Shown here: positions 6,963-21,730 of the stretch, one piece after another
Numbering within the stretch: position 1 is the first letter of the stretch
Layout of the letters: each line of letters begins with the position of its first letter
NCBI GenBank assembly: GCA_902542925.1
Contig: CACBWF010000006.1
Coordinates: 1-36,138, forward strand
DNA: 36,138 nucleotides
Source of the DNA: an uncultured Alphaproteobacteria bacterium
Lineage (GTDB): Bacteria; Pseudomonadota; Alphaproteobacteria; Methylaequorales; Methylaequoraceae
Direction: 5' to 3'
The notes under the pieces: generated by a model
Told to the model about the DNA's origin: nothing
What the model saw: only the letters and a program-made list of their open reading frames with translations
The model's database searches: none
Position numbers and translations under genes: made by a program

Positions 6963-8255
6963 TTAGATAAAATTTTTAAAATAAAAATTAATTCCATTTT
7001 CTAAAAATTTCTTTTTTTCGCTAACAAATGGTATCAAATAATAAGATTCATGTTGAATTAATGGTAAAGTTTTAATAATTGGTGCTTTTAGTTTTCTCTT
7101 ACAATCGGAAAAAAAATACTCTTTAACAAACTTCCAGTTTTCATGATCAATTTTTTTTAATCTTAACTTTTTAAATTTTGATTTAACTACAAACCTGTAA
7201 TCCCATAATTTCTCTTCATTAGGTTTTACAATAACAACATCATTCATATTTAAATGAGTCTTATTATATTCTCTGCATATTATAATTTCATTTTTTACTA
7301 AATTAATAATGCATGAATGCAAAGTGTAATTTTTTACTTTTTCACCTAAGATTTTTTTTATTAACACATGAGATGATTTGTAAGACGGATAAAAAATTTT
7401 TCCAGAACAAAATTTTAAAATTCTTCTTATAACTTCGATTTGTATAGGTTCTTTTAATGATGCGAGCTTATTTTTATTTAGTCTAAAAACTCCATAAGCC
7501 TGAAAAAAAAATCTATCTTTCAAAAAATCTCGAAACAAGTCATCTAGTTCTTTTTTTTTATTTTTAAAAAAATTAATATTTGACTCCATCTCAATTTTTT
7601 TTTTAAGATCGATGTTTTTAAGTTTATTTCTAGTTCTTACTCTTTCAAACTTCGGGTTTGTATTCGATGGGTCATTTATCCACTTCAGGTTATTAGCTTT
7701 ACATGTGTTTTCCAATATCTGCTTTTGAATTTTTAAAAATGGTCTTAATAATAATACATTATTTCTTAATGTTACGTTATCCATACAAGATAGACCATAA
7801 TTAAAAGAACTTCTTTTTTTTCTCATATAGTAGGTTTCTATTTGATCATCAAAATTATGTGCCAGACACAATTTTTTTATACCTAAATTATTGCATCCAT
7901 TAAGTAATAATTCATATCTGATATCTCTTGCTTTTTTCATTAATGCGCTTCCTGGCTTAATTCCATTCCATCTATAAATTTCTGCTTTAACTCCAATATC
8001 TTCAGATATTTTTTTTGCTTGTATTGATTCCGATTTAGAGTCTTCTCTAAGACCATGATCAACTATCATTGAAATAATTTGAAAATTATTTTTTTTTGAA
8101 AATTTATGTAAAAGAAATAACAAGGCTAGGCTGTCTGATCCGCCAGAAAATGCGATACCAATTTTTTCATTTTCTAGCTTAATATTAGTCTCAGAAAAAA
8201 AAACTTCAAAAAATTGATTTTTTAGAATTTTAATCGAATTTACTCGTCTGGACAA
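6963..8255 (-). CDS. tilS: tRNA(Ile)-lysidine synthetase TilS
   Basis: Modifies cytidine 34 of the CAU-anticodon isoleucine tRNA to lysidine so that it reads AUA codons. The N-terminal PP-loop motif SGGSDS is at about residues 37-42. It is followed by AHNFDDQIETYYMR and DPSNTNPKFERVR, both typical of TilS. The C-terminal part is lysine-rich and divergent. At 430 residues the length is normal. The start is TTG, overlapping the end of cpoB by 16 bases, with AAAAGG five bases upstream supporting it. AUA is used in this AT-rich genome (it is even the apparent rpsU start), so this activity matters here. The tilS-ftsH neighbourhood is conserved in many bacteria. Confidence 0.94.
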   Translation of the reverse strand: MSRRVNSIKILKNQFFEVFFSETNIKLENEKIGIAFSGGSDSLALLFLLHKFSKKNNFQIISMIVDHGLREDSKSESIQAKKISEDIGVKAEIYRWNGIKPGSALMKKARDIRYELLLNGCNNLGIKKLCLAHNFDDQIETYYMRKKRSSFNYGLSCMDNVTLRNNVLLLRPFLKIQKQILENTCKANNLKWINDPSNTNPKFERVRTRNKLKNIDLKKKIEMESNINFFKNKKKELDDLFRDFLKDRFFFQAYGVFRLNKNKLASLKEPIQIEVIRRILKFCSGKIFYPSYKSSHVLIKKILGEKVKNYTLHSCIINLVKNEIIICREYNKTHLNMNDVVIVKPNEEKLWDYRFVVKSKFKKLRLKKIDHENWKFVKEYFFSDCKRKLKAPIIKTLPLIQHESYYLIPFVSEKKKFLENGINFYFKNFI

Positions 8256-9106
8256 TTTAACCTTTTCTTTTCCTTTCCAGCTCTTTGTAGAACGTTTTTT
8301 GATGCATCTGGATATTTTAATTGAAGCTCTATTAAAACATTACAAGCTTCAATTTTTTTTTTAATATTTGAAAAAGACAATCCTAATTTTAACATATTAT
8401 CCGGTCCTTTAATTGATTCTGGATAATCTTTTAATCCGGTTCCAAACTCAATAATTGCTTTCTCAAAATCTTTTCTTGCATAGTGAACCTCTCCCAGCCA
8501 GTATTGGATATTTGGCATCAAATCAGTTGGATTTAAATCTCTTAGTTCTAATAACTCTTTTAATGCATCATCGTATTCGTTTGACCATAAAAGTTTTATT
8601 GCATTTTCATATTTTTTTTTTATGTCAATCTCATCATCAACTGCTACAGCATTGTCTATTTTGTCGGTTTTATTTTCATTATTATTTTCTAATAGATTAC
8701 CTAAGTCTAAATCTAAGGTAGACTCTTTTGCTGAGCTAGTTTTTTTGGTGTTTTTATTTAAAAGAATACGACTTAAATTTGAAATTTCTTCAGATATCTC
8801 TTGAAAACGCATTTCTAAGGACTGATTTTGGATATTTATATTATTTTCAATGTTATCAAGTCTATTTTCTAATTCTTCAATTTTTCCAAAATTTTTCTGT
8901 AAATCTGTTTCAATACCGTCAAATCTTTTCTCATTTCGAGAAATATAACCAGATTTTAAACTTTTTTCAGTTTTGTCCTTTGTCAAATCCGTAATATTTC
9001 TTTCAAGTCTTTCAAGTTTATTTAACAGGTCATCTGGATCTATATCTTGGCTTGATAAAAATGTTGAAAAAAAAATCCCTACAAAAAATGAAACAAAATA
9101 TTTCAA
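8240..9106 (-). CDS. cpoB: Cell division coordinator CpoB (YbgF)
   Basis: Periplasmic TPR protein that links Tol-Pal energised outer-membrane constriction with peptidoglycan synthesis (known from E. coli). The sequence has a short signal peptide (KYFVSFFVGIFFSTFLSS). An N-terminal coiled coil follows at about residues 22-115. After an acidic, low-complexity linker, C-terminal TPR-like repeats begin near residue 165 (YENAIKLLWSNEYDDALKEL; YWLGEVHYARKDFEKAIIEF). The start is TTG with AAAGGA six to seven bases before it. It sits immediately after pal, as in most proteobacteria, separated only by a strong hairpin. Confidence 0.92.
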   Translation of the reverse strand: MKYFVSFFVGIFFSTFLSSQDIDPDDLLNKLERLERNITDLTKDKTEKSLKSGYISRNEKRFDGIETDLQKNFGKIEELENRLDNIENNINIQNQSLEMRFQEISEEISNLSRILLNKNTKKTSSAKESTLDLDLGNLLENNNENKTDKIDNAVAVDDEIDIKKKYENAIKLLWSNEYDDALKELLELRDLNPTDLMPNIQYWLGEVHYARKDFEKAIIEFGTGLKDYPESIKGPDNMLKLGLSFSNIKKKIEACNVLIELQLKYPDASKNVLQRAGKEKKRLNCPDE

Positions 9107-9119
9107 TTGGTTTCCTTTT

Positions 9120-9157
9120 AAAAAAAAGGCTAATTACTTATGAATAATTAGCCTTTT
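9120..9157 (-). terminator. Intercistronic hairpin/terminator between pal and cpoB
   Basis: A perfect 13-base inverted repeat (AAAAGGCTAATTA and its complement, 9124-9136 and 9145-9157) encloses an 8-base loop. On the minus strand it is followed by eight T residues, then the AAAAGGA ribosome site of cpoB. It has the form of a rho-independent terminator just after pal, and probably reduces readthrough so that pal is more abundant than cpoB, or stabilises the 3' end of pal mRNA. Confidence 0.8.
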
Positions 9158-9177
9158 ATTATCTACTAAGAAAAAAA

Positions 9178-9654
9178 TTATTCACCAATAACAGTTACAA
9201 CTCTTCTGTTTTCAGACCAAGATTCACTTGTACTTCCCTCAGCTGCAGGTCGTTCTTTACCATAACTCACAGTCATAATACGACTAGCATCTACACCCAA
9301 TGAAACAAGAAATTCTTTTACAGAATTAGCCCTTCTTTCTCCAAGTGCGAGGTTATATTCTCTAGTGCCTCTTTCGTCGCAATGGCCTTCAAGAATGATT
9401 GTAAAGCCAGGTGTGGATTTTATCCAATTTGCTTGTGTCTCCAATTTAAAAGCTGATGAAGAATTGATATTGTGTTTATCTGTTTCAAAATAAACTCTAT
9501 CACCAACTTCATTTATTAAATAATCTTGTAAAGATGATCTTGATCCGTCACCAGTATAACCCTGGGCACCAGTTCCGTCTCCAACTCCAGATGTTGTTTC
9601 GCAACTCGCTACTAAAAACAATCCCAAGACTAATAGTAAAACATTTTTTTTCAT
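9178..9654 (-). CDS. pal: Peptidoglycan-associated lipoprotein Pal
   Basis: Outer-membrane lipoprotein that binds peptidoglycan and TolB in the Tol-Pal complex. It has a lipoprotein signal peptide ending in LVASC, with the lipidated Cys at about residue 18. A short glycine-rich linker leads to a C-terminal OmpA-like domain (EGHCDERGTREYNLALGERR) ending ENRRVVTVIGE. At 158 residues the length is typical. The ATG is preceded by TAAGGA about seven bases upstream, one of the best ribosome sites in the window. It appears to have its own promoter and a terminator. Confidence 0.97.
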   Translation of the reverse strand: MKKNVLLLVLGLFLVASCETTSGVGDGTGAQGYTGDGSRSSLQDYLINEVGDRVYFETDKHNINSSSAFKLETQANWIKSTPGFTIILEGHCDERGTREYNLALGERRANSVKEFLVSLGVDASRIMTVSYGKERPAAEGSTSESWSENRRVVTVIGE

Positions 9655-9684
9655 TTTTTTTCCTTAGAAGTTATTAATATTAAA

Positions 9685-9713
9685 CTATTACATCTTGCAT
9701 TAATATAAGTCAA
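9685..9713 (-). promoter_or_regulatory. Candidate sigma-70 promoter for pal
   Basis: In the 87-base tolB-pal gap the minus strand carries TTGACT, exactly 17 bases, then TAATAG, preceded directly by TG. TTGACT is five of six to the -35 consensus. This gap is large for this window, pal has a strong ribosome site, and a hairpin follows pal. Together these suggest an internal promoter dedicated to pal. Confidence 0.5.
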
Positions 9714-9741
9714 CGAAATACCTAAATTTTTTTTAATTAAA

Positions 9742-11055
9742 TTAGGGTAAAAGTCCTGACCATGCTGGGTCAGAAGCATCCGATGGAGTAATTAATTCTC
9801 TCAAATTTCTACCTGTTAAATCTATAACTTTGATCTTAGGGTTAGTTATATTTTTTTTTGTTTTATTCTGACTGTAAAAAGCAAGTACTCTTCCATTAGG
9901 TGCCCATGTCGGACCCTCTACTAAGTATGCCTTGTAAACCACTCTTTCACCTTTACCATCTTTATACATAACTCCAATATAAAATTCACCATTCAAAAAT
10001 TTTGTAAACGCTATAAGATCGCCACGTGGTGACCAAACTGGGGTTGCATATTTACCTTTTCCAAAACTTATTCTTTTTATTTTTTTTGACTTTAAATTCA
10101 TAGTATAAATTTGCTGCCTTCCACTTCTATCAGATTCAAAGACAATGTCTTTACCATCTGGAGAGTAAGATGGTGCAGTATCTATACCTTTAAATTTTGT
10201 TAATCTTGATAAATTCATGCTCTTTAAGTTCATTTCATATAAGTCAGTATTTCCTTCTCGTGCTAAACTCATAACTAATCTTTCGCCGTTAGGAGAAAAT
10301 CTTGGAGAAAAAGTCATACCTGGAAAGTCACCTAAAACTTTCTGCTTTCCTGTTTCTAAATCCAATAAAAAAATCCTTGGTACTCTTCCGAAATAAGATA
10401 GATATGCAACTAATTGCGATGCTGGGGAAAACCTTGGTGTAAGTGCTAGATATGAACCATCAGTAAGAAACTTGTGATTAGCTCCATCTTGATCCATGAT
10501 AGCTAATCTTTTTTTTCTTTTTGTTTTTAATCCAGACTCAGAAATATAAACAATTCTGGTATCAAAATAACCGCTTTCACCAGTTATTCTTGAATAAATT
10601 ATGTCTGAAATCACATGAGCTATTCTTCTCCAATTATTCTTGTTTGTTTGCAGTTGCTGGGCAACCATTTGTTTTTCTTGAAAAACATCCCACAATCTGA
10701 ATTCTAAACTAATTTTTTTGTTATCTAATTCAATTATTCTTCCGTGTATTAAAACCTGAGCAGTTGTTACTCTCCAGTCAGAAAAATCAGGTTTTCTATT
10801 AAAATTTACTTTTTCGGTTATAAAAGTTTCTTTTCTTAAGTTAGTGAATAATCCTGTTCTTTCTAAATTGTTTCTAATAACCCCAGATATTTTTTTTCCT
10901 AAAGAATTCATTTCCAAACTATTATTTTGAAAATCCAAAATTGCTATTGGAATTGGATTGACATTTCCTTCTGTAATATCAATTCTTACCTCTGACTTAC
11001 AATCAGAAGAAAATATGTAGAATATAAAAATTATTAAAATTTTTTTTAAATCCAT
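9742..11055 (-). CDS. tolB: Tol-Pal system periplasmic protein TolB
   Basis: Periplasmic beta-propeller that shuttles between Pal and TolA. A signal peptide (KKILIIFIFYIFSSDCKSE) is followed by the N-terminal domain (to about residue 165) that binds TolA. The propeller has WD40-like PD40 blades visible as repeated motifs: ALTPRFSPASQLVAY, TFSPRFSPNGERLVMS, DTAPSYSPDGKDIVFESDRS, ATPVWSPRGDLIAF and EGPTWAPNGRVLAFYS. At 437 residues it is full length. It lies six bases after tolA, within the canonical tolQRAB order. Confidence 0.96.
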   Translation of the reverse strand: MDLKKILIIFIFYIFSSDCKSEVRIDITEGNVNPIPIAILDFQNNSLEMNSLGKKISGVIRNNLERTGLFTNLRKETFITEKVNFNRKPDFSDWRVTTAQVLIHGRIIELDNKKISLEFRLWDVFQEKQMVAQQLQTNKNNWRRIAHVISDIIYSRITGESGYFDTRIVYISESGLKTKRKKRLAIMDQDGANHKFLTDGSYLALTPRFSPASQLVAYLSYFGRVPRIFLLDLETGKQKVLGDFPGMTFSPRFSPNGERLVMSLAREGNTDLYEMNLKSMNLSRLTKFKGIDTAPSYSPDGKDIVFESDRSGRQQIYTMNLKSKKIKRISFGKGKYATPVWSPRGDLIAFTKFLNGEFYIGVMYKDGKGERVVYKAYLVEGPTWAPNGRVLAFYSQNKTKKNITNPKIKVIDLTGRNLRELITPSDASDPAWSGLLP

Positions 11056-11061
11056 AATGAT

Positions 11062-11811
11062 TTAGTCTATGTCGCTAAGATCAAAATTTAAAGTAATATT
11101 TTTCCACATTTCATACTTTTTTTTTGGTACTTGAATTTTTTTACATGCAGGATGCTTTACAGCTCTTAAAACTGATTCTGCAACCGATTTATATGATCTA
11201 CTTTTTGAACCATAATCTCTGGAAAGTTTTGAACCTATAACATTTCCGTCAGGATCAAGTTTGAGTTTTACAGATACACTAATTTTTGAAACATCTTTAA
11301 TACCTGCAGGCACTGTCCAGCAAGGAATAAATTGTCTTCTTATTATATCTATTTCACTTATAGTAAGTTTTTCGCCTGTAAAGTCAGGAATCTTTGACTC
11401 AACTGTTTTATCTTTTACGATATCTTCTTTGTCTTGATTTTTTTTTATTTTTTCAATTGTATTTAAAATACTACTTAATCTGTCAACTTTTTTTTCATTT
11501 TTTAAATCTTCTTTTTTTATCTTTTTTTGTTGTTTTTCCAAAGGTTTTTTTTTTTCAATTTTTGCAAATTCTGGTGGTTTTGGCTTTTCAATAATTTTGG
11601 GGGGTGTGTATTCATTCTTTTTTTTAATTGACTCTTTTTTTTTTTCGATCTTCTTTGAAACTGCTTCGGACTTTTTTGCTATTTCTACTACTTCAATTGG
11701 GATATCAGTTAATTTAATTTTTTTTTTTAAACCCAGAAAATCAGATCCAAATAAGAACACCAGGATTATAAAGGAATGAAAAATTATTGATAAAAATAGA
11801 CTACCTATCAT
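11062..11811 (-). CDS. tolA: TolA-like energy transducer
   Basis: Inner-membrane protein that transmits proton-motive force from TolQR to TolB and Pal across the periplasm. It has one N-terminal membrane helix (GSLFLSIIFHSFIILVFLFG), then a Lys/Glu/Pro-rich helical segment (about residues 45-135). The C-terminal domain contains FIPCWTVPAGIKDVSKISVSVKLKLDPDGNVIG, typical of alphaproteobacterial TolA. At 249 residues it is shorter than E. coli TolA, mainly in the helix region. It is flanked by tolR and tolB. Assignment relies on both sequence and position. Confidence 0.92.
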   Translation of the reverse strand: MIGSLFLSIIFHSFIILVFLFGSDFLGLKKKIKLTDIPIEVVEIAKKSEAVSKKIEKKKESIKKKNEYTPPKIIEKPKPPEFAKIEKKKPLEKQQKKIKKEDLKNEKKVDRLSSILNTIEKIKKNQDKEDIVKDKTVESKIPDFTGEKLTISEIDIIRRQFIPCWTVPAGIKDVSKISVSVKLKLDPDGNVIGSKLSRDYGSKSRSYKSVAESVLRAVKHPACKKIQVPKKKYEMWKNITLNFDLSDID

Positions 11812-11824
11812 TTGAAAAGAATTT

Positions 11825-12238
11825 TCAATTTATTTCTGTAACTAAGGCAACTTTTTTAAAGCCAGCTCGATTTATTTCTCCCATTATTTTCATTATCTTA
11901 CCATAATTAATATCCCTATCACCTCTAATATAAATTTTTAAGTCTTGGTCTTGTTTTTTTAATTCTGAAAGTTTTTTTATCAATTTCTTAGAATCCATTT
12001 GTTTATTCTGAAGATAAATTTCTCCCTTTTTATTTATGGTAATTGTAATAGGTTCCTTTTTTTCAGATATTTGATTGGCGGCGCTTTTTGGCAAATTAAT
12101 TTTTATACCTGTTGTCAGTAAAGGAGCAGTTATCATAAAAATGATTAATAGAACAAGCATGACATCAACAAAAGGGGTAACGTTAATCTCATTCATTAAT
12201 GTTTTTTTACCCTTTTTATATCTCGAAAATATTTTCAT
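11825..12238 (-). CDS. tolR: Biopolymer transport protein TolR (ExbD/TolR family)
   Basis: Single-span inner-membrane stator subunit of the Tol proton channel. The motif [20 protein letters not shown] holds the membrane Asp that couples proton flow. A periplasmic ExbD-type domain follows ([43 protein letters not shown]). At 137 residues the length is normal. It starts two bases after the tolQ stop, so the two are probably co-translated. Confidence 0.96.
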
Positions 12239-12240
12239 TA

Positions 12241-12960
12241 TTAATCTTTAAAAACTTCTTTAGAAATAATAATCATCATTTCATTAATAAAAATTTCTAT
12301 TCTGTTACCAAATGTATTAATTCTATCAGTAATTTTATTGTAAGCCAAAACAGCAGGAATTGCCGCAACAAGGCCAAGTGCAGTTGCAAATAAAGCTTCT
12401 GCTATTCCTGGCGCAACAACTGCAAGACTTGTATTTTGAGACATCCCTATAGCTGTAAAACTATTCATAATTCCCCAAACTGTTCCAAATAAACCAACAA
12501 ACGGTGCTGTTGATCCAACTGAGGCTAAAAAATTCATATGAATAGATAAGTTGCTTAATTCTCTTTCCATTACGATATGCATTTCACGTTCGATTCGTTC
12601 GCAAAAATTTTTTTTATAGTCATTATTTTTTAGTCCAGTATTTAATTTAATTCTTTCAACATACCCCATAGCAGAAAAAAAAACTGACTCGAGAGGATGA
12701 CTTGGGTGACTACTTAATTTTTTTGATAGTTTTTGAAGTGTATCACTTGCATAAAACTTCTCTTCAAACTCATCAGACTCAGAGCCTAATCTTTTTAAGA
12801 AACTAAATTTTGAGAAAATTATAGTCCACGACCATAATGAAAAAAAAATAAGTATAATTATAACAATTTTTACTACAAGATCAGCTTCTAAAAATAAAGA
12901 ATAGGCAGAAAAATTATTTACTTCTGAAACTAAATCAATTTTTTCTACAGTATCATCCAT
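12241..12960 (-). CDS. tolQ: Proton channel protein TolQ
   Basis: Three-span inner-membrane channel subunit of the MotA/TolQ/ExbB family that powers TolA. The first helix is at about residues 28-48. The conserved pore helices are [20 protein letters not shown] and [20 protein letters not shown], exactly as in TolQ. At 239 residues the length is typical. It starts ten bases after ybgC and precedes tolR. It differs clearly from the second MotA-like gene at 21.7 kb. Confidence 0.96.
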
Positions 12961-12970
12961 ATAGATTATG

Positions 12971-13393
12971 TTATACTATGTAATTTTTTTTAAATCTAGA
13001 AATTAAATCTTCATTTATTTTTGTTGGTATTTTTTTATTTTTACCAATCCAAACAAGATCTAAATTAATATCACAAATCTCAGACCCGTTTTTTTTAATT
13101 AATTGATTTAATTTCAAATAAGTTTTTTGTATCTTTAATATTTTTGTTTCTACCGTAATTTCATCAAATAAATAACTTGGTTTAAGGAATTTGACTTCTA
13201 ATCGTCTTAATACAAAAAAATTTTCTCCATCACGCAGGATTGTTAAAAAACTCGAGTGAACTGATCTTAAAAATTCAGTACGTGCTCGCTCTGCAAATCT
13301 TAGATAAGAGGTATGATATACAATTCCCCCAGCATCGGTATCTTCATAATATATACAAGTCTTATAAACATGTTTTCTTTTTTTGTATTTCAT
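12971..13393 (-). CDS. ybgC: Acyl-CoA thioesterase YbgC (Tol-Pal associated)
   Basis: Hot-dog-fold thioesterase of the 4-hydroxybenzoyl-CoA thioesterase family, nearly always first in tol-pal operons. The active-site motif YYEDTDAGGIVYHTSYLRF, with the catalytic Asp in DTDAGG, and FAERARTEFLR identify it. At 140 residues the length is usual. Its ATG overlaps the stop of the ruvC-like gene as ATGA. Its exact cellular role, probably in phospholipid metabolism, is not settled in any organism. Confidence 0.93.
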   Translation of the reverse strand: MKYKKRKHVYKTCIYYEDTDAGGIVYHTSYLRFAERARTEFLRSVHSSFLTILRDGENFFVLRRLEVKFLKPSYLFDEITVETKILKIQKTYLKLNQLIKKNGSEICDINLDLVWIGKNKKIPTKINEDLISRFKKNYIV

Positions 13394-13872
13394 GAATTAG
13401 CGTTGCTAAATTTTTCTAGCCAGAACAAACATAGCAAAGCAGCTTCTGCTATTCCATCATTGCTTTTTTTTTTCCAAAGATTACTTTCCCCAAATTTCAT
13501 TCTTGCGAGATCTAAACTTGCTTGTTTAGATGAGTCTAATCCCATTGCTTTTTTCCATACAACTGGTGCTACATAATCAACTCTAGAAGATAATATTTGA
13601 CACAAACCTTCTATTGCACCATAACTTCTTCCGAATTGAAAACTAGAAGTAACTCCTTGTCTTGGCATTGCATGGACTTTTTCAATTACTGAAATATCTA
13701 TCTTTATCATATTTAGTTGTTTTTTTATTGTTAAAATATCGATTATCTTTTTGTTATTAATTTGAAGGGTAGGCATCTTTATAGCAAAAATAATTCTTGG
13801 CAAAGAATTTATTTCTCTTGAAACAACAGCTAAACCTCCACTTTTGCCAGGGTCTATACCAAGAACATTCAT
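13390..13872 (-). CDS. RuvC-like Holliday junction resolvase, divergent type
   Basis: RNase-H-fold nuclease that sits where ruvC normally lies, between yebC and ybgC. Visible acidic residues are Asp7 in LGIDPGKSGGLA, Glu64 in VIEKVHAMPRQG, and Asp139/Glu143 in NDGIAEAALL. The stretch VHAMPRQGVTSSFQFGRSYG resembles the small RuvC-like resolvases found in phages and some alphaproteobacteria more than classical RuvC, whose last acidic pair reads DAADA. At 160 residues it is slightly short. No ruvA or ruvB follows; the next gene overlaps by four bases. The RuvC superfamily is firm, and the phage-type affinity is inferred from motif memory. It abuts the yebC stop directly. Confidence 0.8.
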   Translation of the reverse strand: MNVLGIDPGKSGGLAVVSREINSLPRIIFAIKMPTLQINNKKIIDILTIKKQLNMIKIDISVIEKVHAMPRQGVTSSFQFGRSYGAIEGLCQILSSRVDYVAPVVWKKAMGLDSSKQASLDLARMKFGESNLWKKKSNDGIAEAALLCLFWLEKFSNANS

Positions 13873-14616
13873 CTATAAATTCTCTAAAATTTCATCACTA
13901 AAATTACAATTAAATGCAATATTTTGGACATCATCACAATCTTCTAATTTTTCAATTAATTTAATTAATTTTAAAGCATCATCATTTTGTATTTTTAAAA
14001 TTTCTTTTGACCTCCACTCCAAACTCGAAGCTTTAGGTAAACCATATTTTTTCTCTAAGGAATCCAATACAATATGAAAATTTTCTAATTTCGTAATAAT
14101 TTCATAATCACCATCAACTTCTTCTATATCATTTATATGATTCGAAACAGAAAATTCAAAGATTTCATCAAATGAACAAATTTTACTTGAAAAAGAAATA
14201 ATTCCAATTTTTTCAAAAAAGTGCTTAACTGATCCATTAGAACCTAAATTTCCACCATACTTATTAAATGTTGATCTTATCTCGGAAGCAGTCCTATTTT
14301 TATTATCAGTCATTGCTTCTATAATAATTGCAACTCCTGCAGGTCCAAATCCCTCATAGGTAATTTCTTCAATTTGGGTTGATGAATCACTTTCAGAGTT
14401 TTTTTTTATGGCTCTATCAATGTTATCTTTAGGCATATTTGCAGATAATGCATTATTAATTGCGGTTCTTAATCTTGGGTTAGAATTTGGATCTGGTAGA
14501 CCAAGTTTTGTTGCAACTGATATTTCACGAATCAGTCTTGCAAATAATTTAGCTCTCTTTTTGTCTTGAGCACCTTTCCGATGCATAATATTTTTAAATT
14601 TGGAATGGCCTGCCAC
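13873..14616 (-). CDS. yebC: YebC/PmpR family protein
   Basis: Conserved cytoplasmic protein of the TACO1/YebC family. Members have been described as DNA-binding regulators and, more recently, as ribosome-associated factors that relieve stalling. The N-terminus AGHSKFKNIMHRKGAQDKKR and the segment SANMPKDNIDRAIKK are diagnostic, followed by YEGFGPAGVAIIIEAMTDN. At 247 residues it is full length. The start is GTG with AGGAG a few bases upstream, lying inside the last codons of the preceding phosphoesterase gene. The yebC-ruvC neighbourhood is conserved. Confidence 0.95.
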   Translation of the reverse strand: MAGHSKFKNIMHRKGAQDKKRAKLFARLIREISVATKLGLPDPNSNPRLRTAINNALSANMPKDNIDRAIKKNSESDSSTQIEEITYEGFGPAGVAIIIEAMTDNKNRTASEIRSTFNKYGGNLGSNGSVKHFFEKIGIISFSSKICSFDEIFEFSVSNHINDIEEVDGDYEIITKLENFHIVLDSLEKKYGLPKASSLEWRSKEILKIQNDDALKLIKLIEKLEDCDDVQNIAFNCNFSDEILENL

Positions 14617-15417
14617 TTAATCTCCTAATATCCCTTCAATTTTAATTTGTTTGAAATCTTTAACTATTTTTGTTTTCTTATCAACTTCAAAGATGATACC
14701 ACATAATGTTGCTTTACCATCAGCAGTTTCTAGTCTAGTTTTTTTATGTTTATTTAAAAACCTTGCAATAGCATTTTCTTTTTTCATACCTAAAACTGAG
14801 TTATAATCTCCGCACATTCCAAGATCAGAAATATATAATGTACCTTTTTCCAATAAATGCAAGTCAGAAGTAGGAACATGGGTATGTGTCCCAAATACAG
14901 CTGTTACCCTTCCGTCAAGAAAGTGTCCTATACACATTTTTTCTGATGTTGCTTCTCCATGAACATCTACTAGTATTATAGGTTTTGTTGATTCGTATGA
15001 AGTCTTATTTATTATATCATCTAAAGTTTCGAAAGGGTCGTTAATTGCATCCATAAAAACTCTGCACATAATATTTATAACTAAAATTTCTGTCCCATCT
15101 TGAATTTTATATATACCAAATCCTCTTCCTGGACATTTTTTTGGGAGATTGTCAGGTCTTAGAAGTCTTAAATCCTTGTCAATAAAACTTAAGATTTCTT
15201 GTTGGTCCCAGATATGGTTGCCAGAGGTTATTACATCGACTCCATGCTTATACAAATTTTGACAAATTTTTTCTGTAATACCAAAACCACCTGCAGCATT
15301 TTCTCCATTCACAATTACAAAGTCTAGATTTTCTTTTTTTCTTAATTCTGGAATTTTGTCCTCTACAATTTCTCTTCCTGATCTGCCCACAATATCTCCA
15401 CACACAAGAACTTTCAT
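14617..15417 (-). CDS. YmdB-type metallophosphoesterase (TIGR00282 family)
   Basis: Calcineurin-like phosphoesterase related to Bacillus YmdB, a cyclic-nucleotide phosphodiesterase. Metal-site motifs are CGDIVGRSGRE, NGENAAGGFGIT, TSGNHIWDQ, VDVHGEATSEK and FGTHTHVPT, all in family order, with DLGMCGDYNSVLGM near the end. The track start is a TTG at 15420; the ATG one codon later, overlapping the upstream stop as TGATG, is more likely (266 residues). The physiological substrate in proteobacteria is unknown. It abuts yebC with no spacer. Confidence 0.88.
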   Translation of the reverse strand: MKVLVCGDIVGRSGREIVEDKIPELRKKENLDFVIVNGENAAGGFGITEKICQNLYKHGVDVITSGNHIWDQQEILSFIDKDLRLLRPDNLPKKCPGRGFGIYKIQDGTEILVINIMCRVFMDAINDPFETLDDIINKTSYESTKPIILVDVHGEATSEKMCIGHFLDGRVTAVFGTHTHVPTSDLHLLEKGTLYISDLGMCGDYNSVLGMKKENAIARFLNKHKKTRLETADGKATLCGIIFEVDKKTKIVKDFKQIKIEGILGD

Positions 15418-15980
15418 CAACTTATCACTTTGCTTTGTGTTATAATAATATCGAGTGTGATATCAAAATCTTCTGTTGGTAAGTCAGAGTAAAATTGTTG
15501 ATCGTACGCAATGCCAATACTAAAAAATTTAACTTTTTTTTTTTGTAATATATTCATTGTATAGTCATAATACCCCCCACCATAACCTAATCTATTTTTT
15601 TTTTTGTCAAAAGAAACTAATGGAACCAGAATAAAATTTGGGGTTATTTCTTCACAAGTCCATGGAATTGGTATATTAAACTTACCTCTTTTCAAAGGGG
15701 TATTATTTTTCCATGATATAAAAATTAATTTTTTTGAGTTTTCAACCATTTTTGGGACGCAAATTGTATTTTCATCAATATTTAACTCACACATTGATTG
15801 ATTTACACTTACCTCACCTCTTACTGCAAAATATCCAGCTAAACGAATATTTTGTTTTTTTTTTAAAAAAGAAAGTATATTTTCATTTAATTTCTTGTCT
15901 ACTATGTTTCTATTAGAAATTTTGCTTCTATTTTTAAGGTATAAGTCTCTAATAATTTTTTTTTTTTCCTTTATACTCAT
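15417..15980 (-). CDS. ygfA: 5-formyltetrahydrofolate cyclo-ligase
   Basis: ATP-dependent enzyme that converts 5-formyl-THF to 5,10-methenyl-THF, recovering a stored folate form. The C-terminal signature LVPLVSFDKKKNRLGYGGGYYD is diagnostic. YFAVRGEVSVNQ and the basic N-terminus also fit. At 187 residues the length is normal. Its ATG overlaps the zapA stop as ATGA. The zapA-ygfA pairing is widely conserved; the 6S RNA gene found between them in gammaproteobacteria cannot fit here. Confidence 0.93.
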   Translation of the reverse strand: MSIKEKKKIIRDLYLKNRSKISNRNIVDKKLNENILSFLKKKQNIRLAGYFAVRGEVSVNQSMCELNIDENTICVPKMVENSKKLIFISWKNNTPLKRGKFNIPIPWTCEEITPNFILVPLVSFDKKKNRLGYGGGYYDYTMNILQKKKVKFFSIGIAYDQQFYSDLPTEDFDITLDIIITQSKVIS

Positions 15981-16252
15981 AGATCCAGTATTTCTTCAAT
16001 TTTTGTGAATAGTTTATTAATTTGATTTTTCATTGATTGGTCAAAATCTCTATTATTATTTTGGGAAAGATCATTCGCAATTAGAATTGATATCATAAGA
16101 AACTTTCTTGCAAGGGGAATGTCATTTTCATTTTTGAATAAATCCATTTTTTCATTTACTATTTTAACAGCTTTTTTTAAATCATTTTCTTCGCCATCTT
16201 CGCAGTATAATGTATAATCTTTATCACCAATGTTAAATTTTAGTTCAGGCAT
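15977..16252 (-). CDS. zapA: Cell division protein ZapA
   Basis: Small FtsZ-binding protein that bundles protofilaments at the Z-ring. The N-terminal globular part (PELKFNIGDKDYTLYCEDGEENDLKKA) and the following coiled coil with KFLMISILIANDLSQ fit the family. At 91 residues it is typical. It starts ten bases downstream of a newly noted coiled-coil gene and overlaps the cyclo-ligase start. There is no clear Shine-Dalgarno, so translation may be coupled to the upstream gene. Confidence 0.9.
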   Translation of the reverse strand: MPELKFNIGDKDYTLYCEDGEENDLKKAVKIVNEKMDLFKNENDIPLARKFLMISILIANDLSQNNNRDFDQSMKNQINKLFTKIEEILDL

Positions 16253-19501: not shown

Positions 19502-21730
19502 ATGCAATTTGCCCTTTTTTTATTTCTTACAGCATTTCAGTTTTTGTTTTTTTCAGAAATATTGTTATCGCAAGAAACTAAACAGCAAAAACTCCAATCG
19601 GTTTACCCATCAAATAATGAAAGGATATTGCTTCCGTCAGTAAGCGATGATGAATCTAAAGAAACTATAATCCTTCAACCACCGAAAGAAATAATTGAAG
19701 CTCTTGAAAAAGAAAAAAAAATAAAAGAGGAAAAAAAACGTCAGCAAGAACTTCGTAAAGCTGAAGAAGAACGTAAACGCCAAGAAGAACTTCGTAAAGT
19801 CGAAGAAGAACGTAAACGTCAAGAAGAACTTCGTAAAGCCGAAGAAGAACGTAAACGCCAAGAAGAAATTCGTAAAGCTGAGGAGGAACGTAAGCGCCAA
19901 GAAGAAATTCGTAAAGCAGAAGAAGAACGTAAACGTCAAGAACAAATACGTAAAGCTGAAGAAGAACGTAAACGTCAAGAAGAACTTCGTAAAGCTGAGG
20001 AGGAACGTAAGCGCCAAGAAGAACTTCGTAAAGCCGAAGAAGAACGCAAACGTCAAGAAGAACTTCGTAAAGCTGAGGAAGAACGTAAGCGCCAAGAAGA
20101 ATTACGTAAAGTTGAAGAAGAACGTAAACGTCAAGAACAATTACTTAAAGCTAGAGAAGAACGTGAGAAAATAAAACAATTAAGAATTGCTGAAGAAAAA
20201 CGAAAAAAACAAGAAAGAATAGAACAAGCAAAACAGAAAAAAGAAAAACAAATTGAATTAAAAAAAGCTGAAAAAAAAAGAAAAGAATTAGAAAAGAAAG
20301 CAGATGCTAAACTTAGGCAGGAAAAAAAAGAAAGAATAGAAGAAGCAAAAAAAATTGCTAACTTAAAAAGAATAGAAAAAGAAAAAGAACTCAAGTCTCT
20401 CATAGAAAAAAAGAGTCAAGAAAGAAAGAAAATTTCTGATCAAAAGAAAGCCGATGCAGAGGAAAGACTTTTACAAAAGAAAAATAATGAGGAAAAACAA
20501 ATCTTAATGGGAAAAGAAAAAGAAATTCTTGCTGAGAAGAAAAGAGAAATTGAAAAGCTAAAAAGAGAAGAAAAAGCTGAAAAAATCAAAAGACAAAAAA
20601 TAATGCTTGCAGAAAAGAGAAAGTTAGAAGCAAAACAAAAATTGTTAAGAGAAAAAGAAAATAAAGAAAAAAAAATAAAAGAGCAAAAAGAAAAACAGAG
20701 AATTGCAGAACAAAAAAGAGCTGAAGAAAAAAACAAACGACTATTACTAGAAGAAAAAATTAAACAGGAGAAAATTGTATTAGCTGAAAAAAGAAAAAAA
20801 AAATATGAAGAACAAAAAGTATTAAACGAAAAAAACAAAAAAATTCTTCTTGAGAGACAAAAAATGAAAGAAGAAGAAGCAAAAAAAAAAAGAGTAGAAC
20901 TAAAACTTGATAGACAAAAAAAAATTGAAGAGATTTCAAAAAAAAATCAAGAATTAGCGGATAAAATAAAAATAGAAGCAAGATCTCAAAAAGTTAAAAA
21001 GAATGAAAAGAATCAAGGAGAAAATAAAAAAGTTGAGGCAAAGATAATTCAAACTGAAGTGTTTGAAGAATTAGGAAATGCTGATATTGAAAAAAACTTA
21101 GTTCAAAAAAAGATTAATGAAAAAATACTACTTAAAGAATTAGCTGAACAAAGAAATAAGGAAATACAAAAAAGGAAATATTCATATTTTAATAATGAGA
21201 GTATTTCTAAAGATATAGAAGTTGATAATACTAAATATTTTTTTGATGAAGGGATTGTTGACAAATTATCACAAAAAAAAACAAGCAAACAAGTAATCGA
21301 TGAAAAATTAGTTAAAAAGAAACTCCAGAAAAAAAAAGAAGATTATAATGATAAAAATACGAAACAATCTATTTCAGAAAATAAAATTATTTCAGCTTTC
21401 AATACTAAACCTGTCATACCATTAGAAAAGAAAAAACTTAATGAAAAAACTGAAATATTTATTTATGAATCAAATCAAATAGATTTAGACACTACTCAAA
21501 AAATGAAAATCTCAGAATACGTAAGTCTAATCAAAAATAAACCAATAAAAATACATATAAAATCAAGTATATTTGAGGATGATCTTAAAATCAACAAATC
21601 AAGAACACTTTTAGTAAGAGCATTTCTAGTAAAACTAGGTATTTCTCACAACAGAATCAAAATTGATTTTGAGAAAGAGTTTAATGATATTAATAAGGAT
21701 GAAATTGCAATAAGCTTTATTGAAATCTAA
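19502..21730 (+). CDS. Giant exported K/E-rich coiled-coil protein with repeats and OmpA-like C-terminus
   Basis: No known name. Residues 1-24 form a signal peptide or membrane anchor (FALFLFLTAFQFLFF). Residues about 60-570 are an almost uninterrupted charged helix. Within it are ten 13-residue repeats of the form KAEEERKRQEELR (residues 86-215), preceded by a partial copy and followed by a degenerate one. A less repetitive segment leads to a C-terminal domain (about 645-742) that resembles a diverged OmpA-like fold: KPIKIHIKSSIFED, NKSRTLLVRAFLVKLGISHNRIKI. The layout of anchor, long helix and small C-terminal domain resembles TolA. The next gene, a MotA/TolQ-like channel, starts one base after its stop. 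There is no clear Shine-Dalgarno; a TATAAT lies just upstream of the ATG. Confidence 0.8.
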   Translation: MQFALFLFLTAFQFLFFSEILLSQETKQQKLQSVYPSNNERILLPSVSDDESKETIILQPPKEIIEALEKEKKIKEEKKRQQELRKAEEERKRQEELRKVEEERKRQEELRKAEEERKRQEEIRKAEEERKRQEEIRKAEEERKRQEQIRKAEEERKRQEELRKAEEERKRQEELRKAEEERKRQEELRKAEEERKRQEELRKVEEERKRQEQLLKAREEREKIKQLRIAEEKRKKQERIEQAKQKKEKQIELKKAEKKRKELEKKADAKLRQEKKERIEEAKKIANLKRIEKEKELKSLIEKKSQERKKISDQKKADAEERLLQKKNNEEKQILMGKEKEILAEKKREIEKLKREEKAEKIKRQKIMLAEKRKLEAKQKLLREKENKEKKIKEQKEKQRIAEQKRAEEKNKRLLLEEKIKQEKIVLAEKRKKKYEEQKVLNEKNKKILLERQKMKEEEAKKKRVELKLDRQKKIEEISKKNQELADKIKIEARSQKVKKNEKNQGENKKVEAKIIQTEVFEELGNADIEKNLVQKKINEKILLKELAEQRNKEIQKRKYSYFNNESISKDIEVDNTKYFFDEGIVDKLSQKKTSKQVIDEKLVKKKLQKKKEDYNDKNTKQSISENKIISAFNTKPVIPLEKKKLNEKTEIFIYESNQIDLDTTQKMKISEYVSLIKNKPIKIHIKSSIFEDDLKINKSRTLLVRAFLVKLGISHNRIKIDFEKEFNDINKDEIAISFIEI
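19757..20146 (+). repeat. Ten tandem 39-base repeats encoding a 13-residue coiled-coil unit
   Basis: Ten in-frame 39-base copies, each encoding K(A/V)EEERKRQE(E/Q)(L/I)(R/L). Copies differ mostly by synonymous changes (GCT/GCC, GAA/GAG, CGT/CGC). Arginine is written CGT or CGC throughout the array, while the rest of the gene mostly uses AGA. Local GC is higher than in its surroundings. This suggests expansion by duplication from one founding unit. Copy number may vary between strains or be mis-assembled. Confidence 0.92.

Follow-up and report, generated by a model that had tools for sequence, protein, structure and literature searches.

Chloroplast MOC1 is the closest described counterpart of the enzyme discussed here, with NtMOC1 and ZmMOC1 as its representatives (PMC7078210, PMC11183143). 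In NtMOC1, the catalytic tetrad consists of D116, D118, E175, and E258, while a mutation of D253 remained without effect (PMC7078210). MOC1 resolves the junctions within the chloroplast, and a loss of plant RECG destabilizes organelle genomes (PMC8159992), which makes this organelle a possible parallel. Further systems for comparison are the phage resolvases of PHROG 1770, with homologues, for example, in Vibrio phage phi50-12 and Salmonella phage epsilon15, the RuvC of Lactococcus phage 67 (4KTW), and bacterial RuvC (PF02075; E. coli RuvC, 1HJR). The RuvC of Lactococcus phage 67 acts without RuvAB.

The window, i.e., the whole stretch of 36,138 nucleotides that was analyzed, is one complete contig (C6; CACBWF010000006.1) of an 872-kb assembly (GCA_902542925.1; 54% complete) of an uncultured alphaproteobacterium of the family Methylaequoraceae. 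The gene order tilS-ybgF-pal-tolBARQ-ybgC-X-yebC-ymdB-fthC-zapA-gap is common to the family genomes as determined by tblastn, and the cluster from tilS to zapA served as the frame for comparing the contents of position X, hereafter the slot, with gene names given by position and sequence. In the window, the slot holds a single gene with an ATG start, which follows yebC without any gap (Table 1). The initial annotation, made from the sequence alone, had stated that a RuvC-like gene directly adjoins yebC and shares four bases with ybgC, leaving no room for ruvAB. This was confirmed by the coordinates and the Pfam matches, as the space between yebC and ybgC is too small for ruvA or ruvB beside the resolvase gene. 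The usual order yebC-ruvC-ruvA-ruvB-ybgC, which it had assumed, also held within the family: classical RuvC adjoins yebC in all 18 of the 18 genomes having it, and by our tally 17 of them have RuvB adjacent on the contig that carries RuvC. In the seven relatives that were inspected closely, ybgC and yebC are approximately 2.1 kb apart, compared with the single gene in the window. No phage genes other than the resolvase were found in the window neighborhood, and a prophage remnant was ruled out on these grounds.

Table 1. Coordinates of the resolvase gene, its predicted functional codons, and its neighbors within the window.
Feature	Position	Strand	Basis
MOC1-type / PHROG 1770 Holliday-junction resolvase, phage origin, 160 aa, in the ruvC-ruvA-ruvB slot	13390..13872	-	PHROG_1770 E=4e-24; MOC1 structures best by profile and fold; nested in phage proteins in the tree
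Codon of D7, first catalytic acid (NtMOC1 D116)	13852..13854	-	D in 47/47 homologues; MOC1 alignment; tetrad from PMC7078210
Codon of E64, second catalytic acid (NtMOC1 E175)	13681..13683	-	E in 47/47; MOC1 alignment; PMC7078210
Codon of E143, third catalytic acid (NtMOC1 E258)	13444..13446	-	E in 31, D in 16 of 47; MOC1 alignment; PMC7078210
Codons of M69-Q72, loop equivalent to the MOC1 base-recognition loop (Y180...D183)	13657..13668	-	Ungapped NtMOC1 alignment; Q72 in 46/47
yebC, upstream neighbor, ruv-locus marker	13873..14616	-	Pfam TACO1/YebC E=5e-48
ybgC thioesterase, downstream neighbor; start overlaps resolvase stop by 4 bases	12971..13393	-	Pfam 4HBT_2 E=7e-13
Conserved cluster tilS-ybgF-pal-tolB-tolA-tolR-tolQ-ybgC-[slot]-yebC-ymdB-fthC-zapA	6963..16252	-	tblastn vs relatives

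The encoded protein matched the phage Holliday-junction resolvase family PHROG_1770 over residues 3 to 157 (E=4e-24), whereas the Pfam RuvC model (PF02075) reached 17.6 bits and stayed below its curated cut-off of 22.2. A search of NCBIfam, including its RuvC model, gave no match. When a profile of 47 homologues was compared with solved structures, chloroplast MOC1 was matched with E=1e-27 over residues 3 to 150, compared with 0.004 for E. coli RuvC. The AlphaFold model (pLDDT 92.6, pTM 0.88) meets the criterion of a predicted RNase H (RuvC-like) fold, and its comparison with the PDB placed MOC1 structures first (TM of approximately 0.8) and bacterial RuvC next (approximately 0.63 to 0.72). 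The RuvC of Lactococcus phage 67 is likewise a phage resolvase of the RuvC fold, but its fold match was weaker than that of MOC1 (E=3e-6, TM of approximately 0.64 to 0.69) at 17% identity.

In the alignment, the NtMOC1 tetrad corresponds to D7, G9, E64, and E143 of the window protein. The three acids are thus retained, whereas position 9 is an invariant glycine in 47 of 47 homologues, including all aligned phage relatives, and the second Asp (D118) of the plant DPD motif is absent. The replacement of this second metal-binding acid is a point that speaks against a MOC1-like resolvase function. The dispensable D253 of NtMOC1, which adjoins the active site, is likewise not conserved in the window protein and its homologues; D139 of the window protein varies among the 47 homologues. 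Besides an identity of about 25%, a further difference from MOC1 lies in the loop, where Y180 and D183 are replaced by M69 and Q72, from which we infer that the sequence preference probably differs. Moreover, the window protein comes from a prokaryote, is derived from phages, and has its gene in the ruv slot.

In a tree of 94 resolvase sequences, alphaproteobacterial RuvC formed one side of a branch with 100/100 support, and the window protein was found on the other side, nested among phage proteins. It grouped with L105 and L107 from another bacterial lineage (100/97), this group adjoined the marine viral proteins L208 and L209 (99/83), and the surrounding clade (100/92) includes 10 viral proteins, namely these two and eight more. 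The identity of the window protein was 34–38% to isolate phages and 55% to the marine viral contigs L208 and L209. In L050, L051, L208, and L211, the homologue is flanked by a primase/helicase-like gene on one side and by terminase-like genes on the other (roles assigned from sequence), whereas the window gene is chromosomal, placed between yebC and ybgC and not by terminase genes. A quick tree put MOC1 nearest to the phage rows and not to canonical RuvC, although without firm support. Compared with bacterial RuvC, the window protein thus shares the RNase H fold, the acidic active site, and the chromosomal position, but differs in its sub-cut-off Pfam score, its separation in the tree, and the lack of adjacent RuvA and RuvB. 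The proposed closeness to phage-like RuvC relatives therefore held. Both motifs named in its support are present, HAMPRQGVTSSFQFGRSYG at residues 67–85 and NDGIAEA at residues 138–144, with the correction that the latter, described as an ending, is near the C-terminus and not at it. As a side observation, a nearly identical MOC1-type gene occurs on the bacterial-bin contig L115 and on the viral contig L227; some MOC1-type copies in bacterial bins are therefore phage or prophage sequence.

With regard to a single contig from a 54% complete bin, whose locus is missing in the sister genome, it could be argued that the contig was mis-binned or chimeric, originating from SAR11 or another lineage. 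However, the flanking genes with better conservation, namely tolB, tolQ, yebC, ymdB, and gap, are approximately 56–76% identical to those of the family, compared with approximately 44–60% to G128, G236, and G148, and GAPDH reached 62–68% within the family and at most 57% outside it in that search. In the species tree built from flanking genes, the window falls inside its family (100/100), among carriers of ruvCAB. Furthermore, the 4-bp overlap joins the resolvase to the gene order, and the arrangement recurs in unrelated assemblies, some of them complete. Contamination was rejected on the flanking-gene identities and the species tree, so that this explanation is all but excluded. L105-L107 are located elsewhere in the species tree. 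They share a resolvase clade with the window but belong to a different clade of species, which leaves two scenarios: a transfer of the gene between these lineages or two separate donations by related phages.

Within the window's own assembly (54% complete), neither a classical RuvC nor RuvA was found, and the search for RuvB yielded nothing beyond AAA+ matches with low scores of about 25 bits. The loss of RuvAB in this genome consequently rests on the slot, since both genes could lie in the missing part. Among the family genomes, the window genome is the only one with yebC but without classical ruvC; wherever else ruvC is missing, yebC is missing with it, so that gaps in the assembly are a better explanation than gene loss. 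The joint absence of yebC and the ruv genes was seen in G001, G002, G005, G009-G011, G014-G016, G023, G027, and G031 at a completeness of up to 90%, suggesting that the whole region often remains unassembled or unbinned. In the sister genome G001 (82% complete), the resolvase locus is not assembled, and the swap in the window's genus therefore rests on one contig. A protein-only search of 80 relatives returned the window itself as the sole match to the resolvase.

Outside the family, the distribution was followed with a pattern scan built on a tighter alignment (A2), as the first one (A1) was too diverse. Among named genomes, 80 loci were found, chiefly from SAR11 (Pelagibacteraceae). The resolvase copies on bacterial contigs were accompanied by yebC or tol genes in 73 cases, and in every locus inspected the resolvase lay between yebC and ybgC or tolQ. 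L090 and many SAR11 loci (e.g., L116-L118, L120, L121) showed no ybgC match, with tolQ directly following the resolvase, while other SAR11 keep ybgC. The MOC1-type gene occupies the slot in SAR11, the L105-L107 lineage, and G148. Our Pelagibacterales sample comprised 147 genomes (106 of them at least 90% complete), by our tally 94 of family f98 and 53 of family f159. The identification of f98 as Pelagibacteraceae relies on its member G128, which clusters closely with loci of named Pelagibacteraceae and whose resolvase protein is identical to the one from L111, a bacterium named as Pelagibacteraceae. The MOC1-type gene was present in 87 of the 94 f98 genomes, in the same slot wherever inspected, and matched in none of the 53 f159 genomes. 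RuvB was found in none of the 147 genomes, the best match reaching 33.9 bits compared with the 170–275 bits obtained when real RuvB is matched over its full length, and RuvA was not found in any RuvB-less genome tested, but was present in two family controls. RecG was detected in 19 of 20 genomes checked; it was missing only from the incomplete window genome (G000), whose sister carries it.

These data also bear on the possibility that RuvAB moved elsewhere in the genome and now partners a phage-type RuvC, as the initial annotation had considered. Such a relocation could have been missed in a 54% complete assembly. However, all relatives with classical ruvC keep the genes in the slot, and SAR11 genomes that share this arrangement and are nearly complete lack RuvB as well as, in those tested, RuvA. 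We therefore regard relocation as very unlikely, whereas the other option named, a replacement of the classical resolvase with loss of RuvAB, is supported.

In other streamlined lineages without RuvB or RuvA, the slot is occupied by nucleases resembling the PD-(D/E)xK type. The slot proteins of G060 (a single 1.41-Mb contig) and G053 matched PHROG 2002, and those of G079 and G332, the latter being the f159 protein tested, matched PHROG 244 and Pfam PDDEXK_15; both PHROGs are labeled as Holliday-junction resolvases. Sampling of these slots was thin, with four f159 genomes and one genome for each of the other lineages. The loci with phage-type PD-(D/E)xK resolvases of PHROG 2002 or PHROG 244 in the slot after yebC, in place of a RuvC-fold gene, are L196, L202, L199, L200, L203, L204, and L201, all from lineages without RuvABC. 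At L201 / L290 (G079), no tol-pal match was found beside yebC, and tilS follows the slot nuclease. A third suggestion from the sequence alone, that of a lineage-specific route of junction processing, proved too narrow, because the slot was refilled in several lineages by at least three phage resolvase families. Two simpler histories were rejected by AU tests, in which the constrained groups were set by chromosomal position and not taken from the tree: one ancestral acquisition of all in-slot MOC1-type copies (p=0.00023) and the window clade together with SAR11 as a single group (p=0.0004). The phage-type resolvase thus apparently took over the ruv slot repeatedly, in several independent events.

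Taken together, we consider it likely that a phage-derived Holliday-junction resolvase of the MOC1 type replaced the ruvC-ruvA-ruvB block in place. The position, the phage affinity, the catalytic acids, the purifying selection in SAR11, and the absence of RuvAB from near-complete genomes of other lineages sharing the arrangement are shown, and the fold is predicted, while junction cleavage, independence from RuvAB, and the hand-off to RecG are inferred. With no activity data at hand, the resolvase function itself is deduced from homology, catalytic residues, and purifying selection. A dimeric enzyme of the RNase H fold would bind the four-way junction and set paired symmetric nicks at the crossover via metal ions held by D7, E64, and E143, as inferred for a metal-dependent dimer. 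The RuvAB branch-migration motor would not be needed, an inference drawn because phage enzymes of this kind come as single genes, and branch migration, where required, may fall to the RecG kept by these lineages.

Alternatively, the gene could be a phage relic or passenger that no longer resolves host junctions, with RuvX/YqgF or RecG alone doing the job. In favor of this, close homologues lie beside phage terminase-like genes, where their presumed task is to remove branches from the DNA for packaging, and RecG is retained. However, the SAR11 copies are under strong purifying selection (median dN/dS of 0.075 across 355 pairs), the catalytic acids are kept, the slot was occupied repeatedly and even by unrelated junction-resolvase families, and the neighborhood holds no further phage genes, which makes a relic unlikely. 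Beyond the in-place replacement in the window, a bolder reading is one we favor by a small margin: the ruv slot of streamlined marine alphaproteobacteria, including SAR11, would be a recurrent exchange slot, where single-gene resolvases from phages, belonging to no fewer than three families (the MOC1 type as well as PHROG 2002 and PHROG 244 of the PD-(D/E)xK type), took the place of RuvABC on several occasions, and recombination would then be completed in a chloroplast-like manner by resolvase and RecG without RuvAB.

In the open-access literature searched on SAR11 or Pelagibacter together with ruv genes or Holliday junctions, a swap of RuvABC was not described, with most subscription papers being outside this scope. 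Pelagibacter has reportedly been described as having lost additional genes for repair and recombination (doi 10.1093/molbev/msr203), and an earlier notice of the ruvAB loss can therefore not be excluded. A 'putative Holliday junction resolvase' of the SAR11 core was listed without details (PMC3686209) and is possibly the slot gene or YqgF. According to a review that cites the first genome paper, Ca. Pelagibacter ubique yielded no phage genes (PMC4285135), a statement that a core repair gene of phage origin would qualify. SAR11 is among the most abundant organisms of the ocean; if its recombination is indeed finished without RuvABC, by an enzyme taken from phages, the place that textbooks give RuvABC as the standard machine of bacteria would have a large natural exception. 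That unrelated nucleases with only junction cutting in common replaced the same block repeatedly would be natural evidence that this activity is retained while RuvAB is dispensable, and the parallel to chloroplast MOC1 makes the idea directly testable with existing assays.

Elsewhere in the window, positions 19502-21730 of the plus strand encode a 742-aa protein, which consists mostly of a long, highly charged repetitive stretch of RKAEEERKRQEE units and is followed downstream by genes resembling a MotA/TolQ-like protein and an OmpA-like protein.
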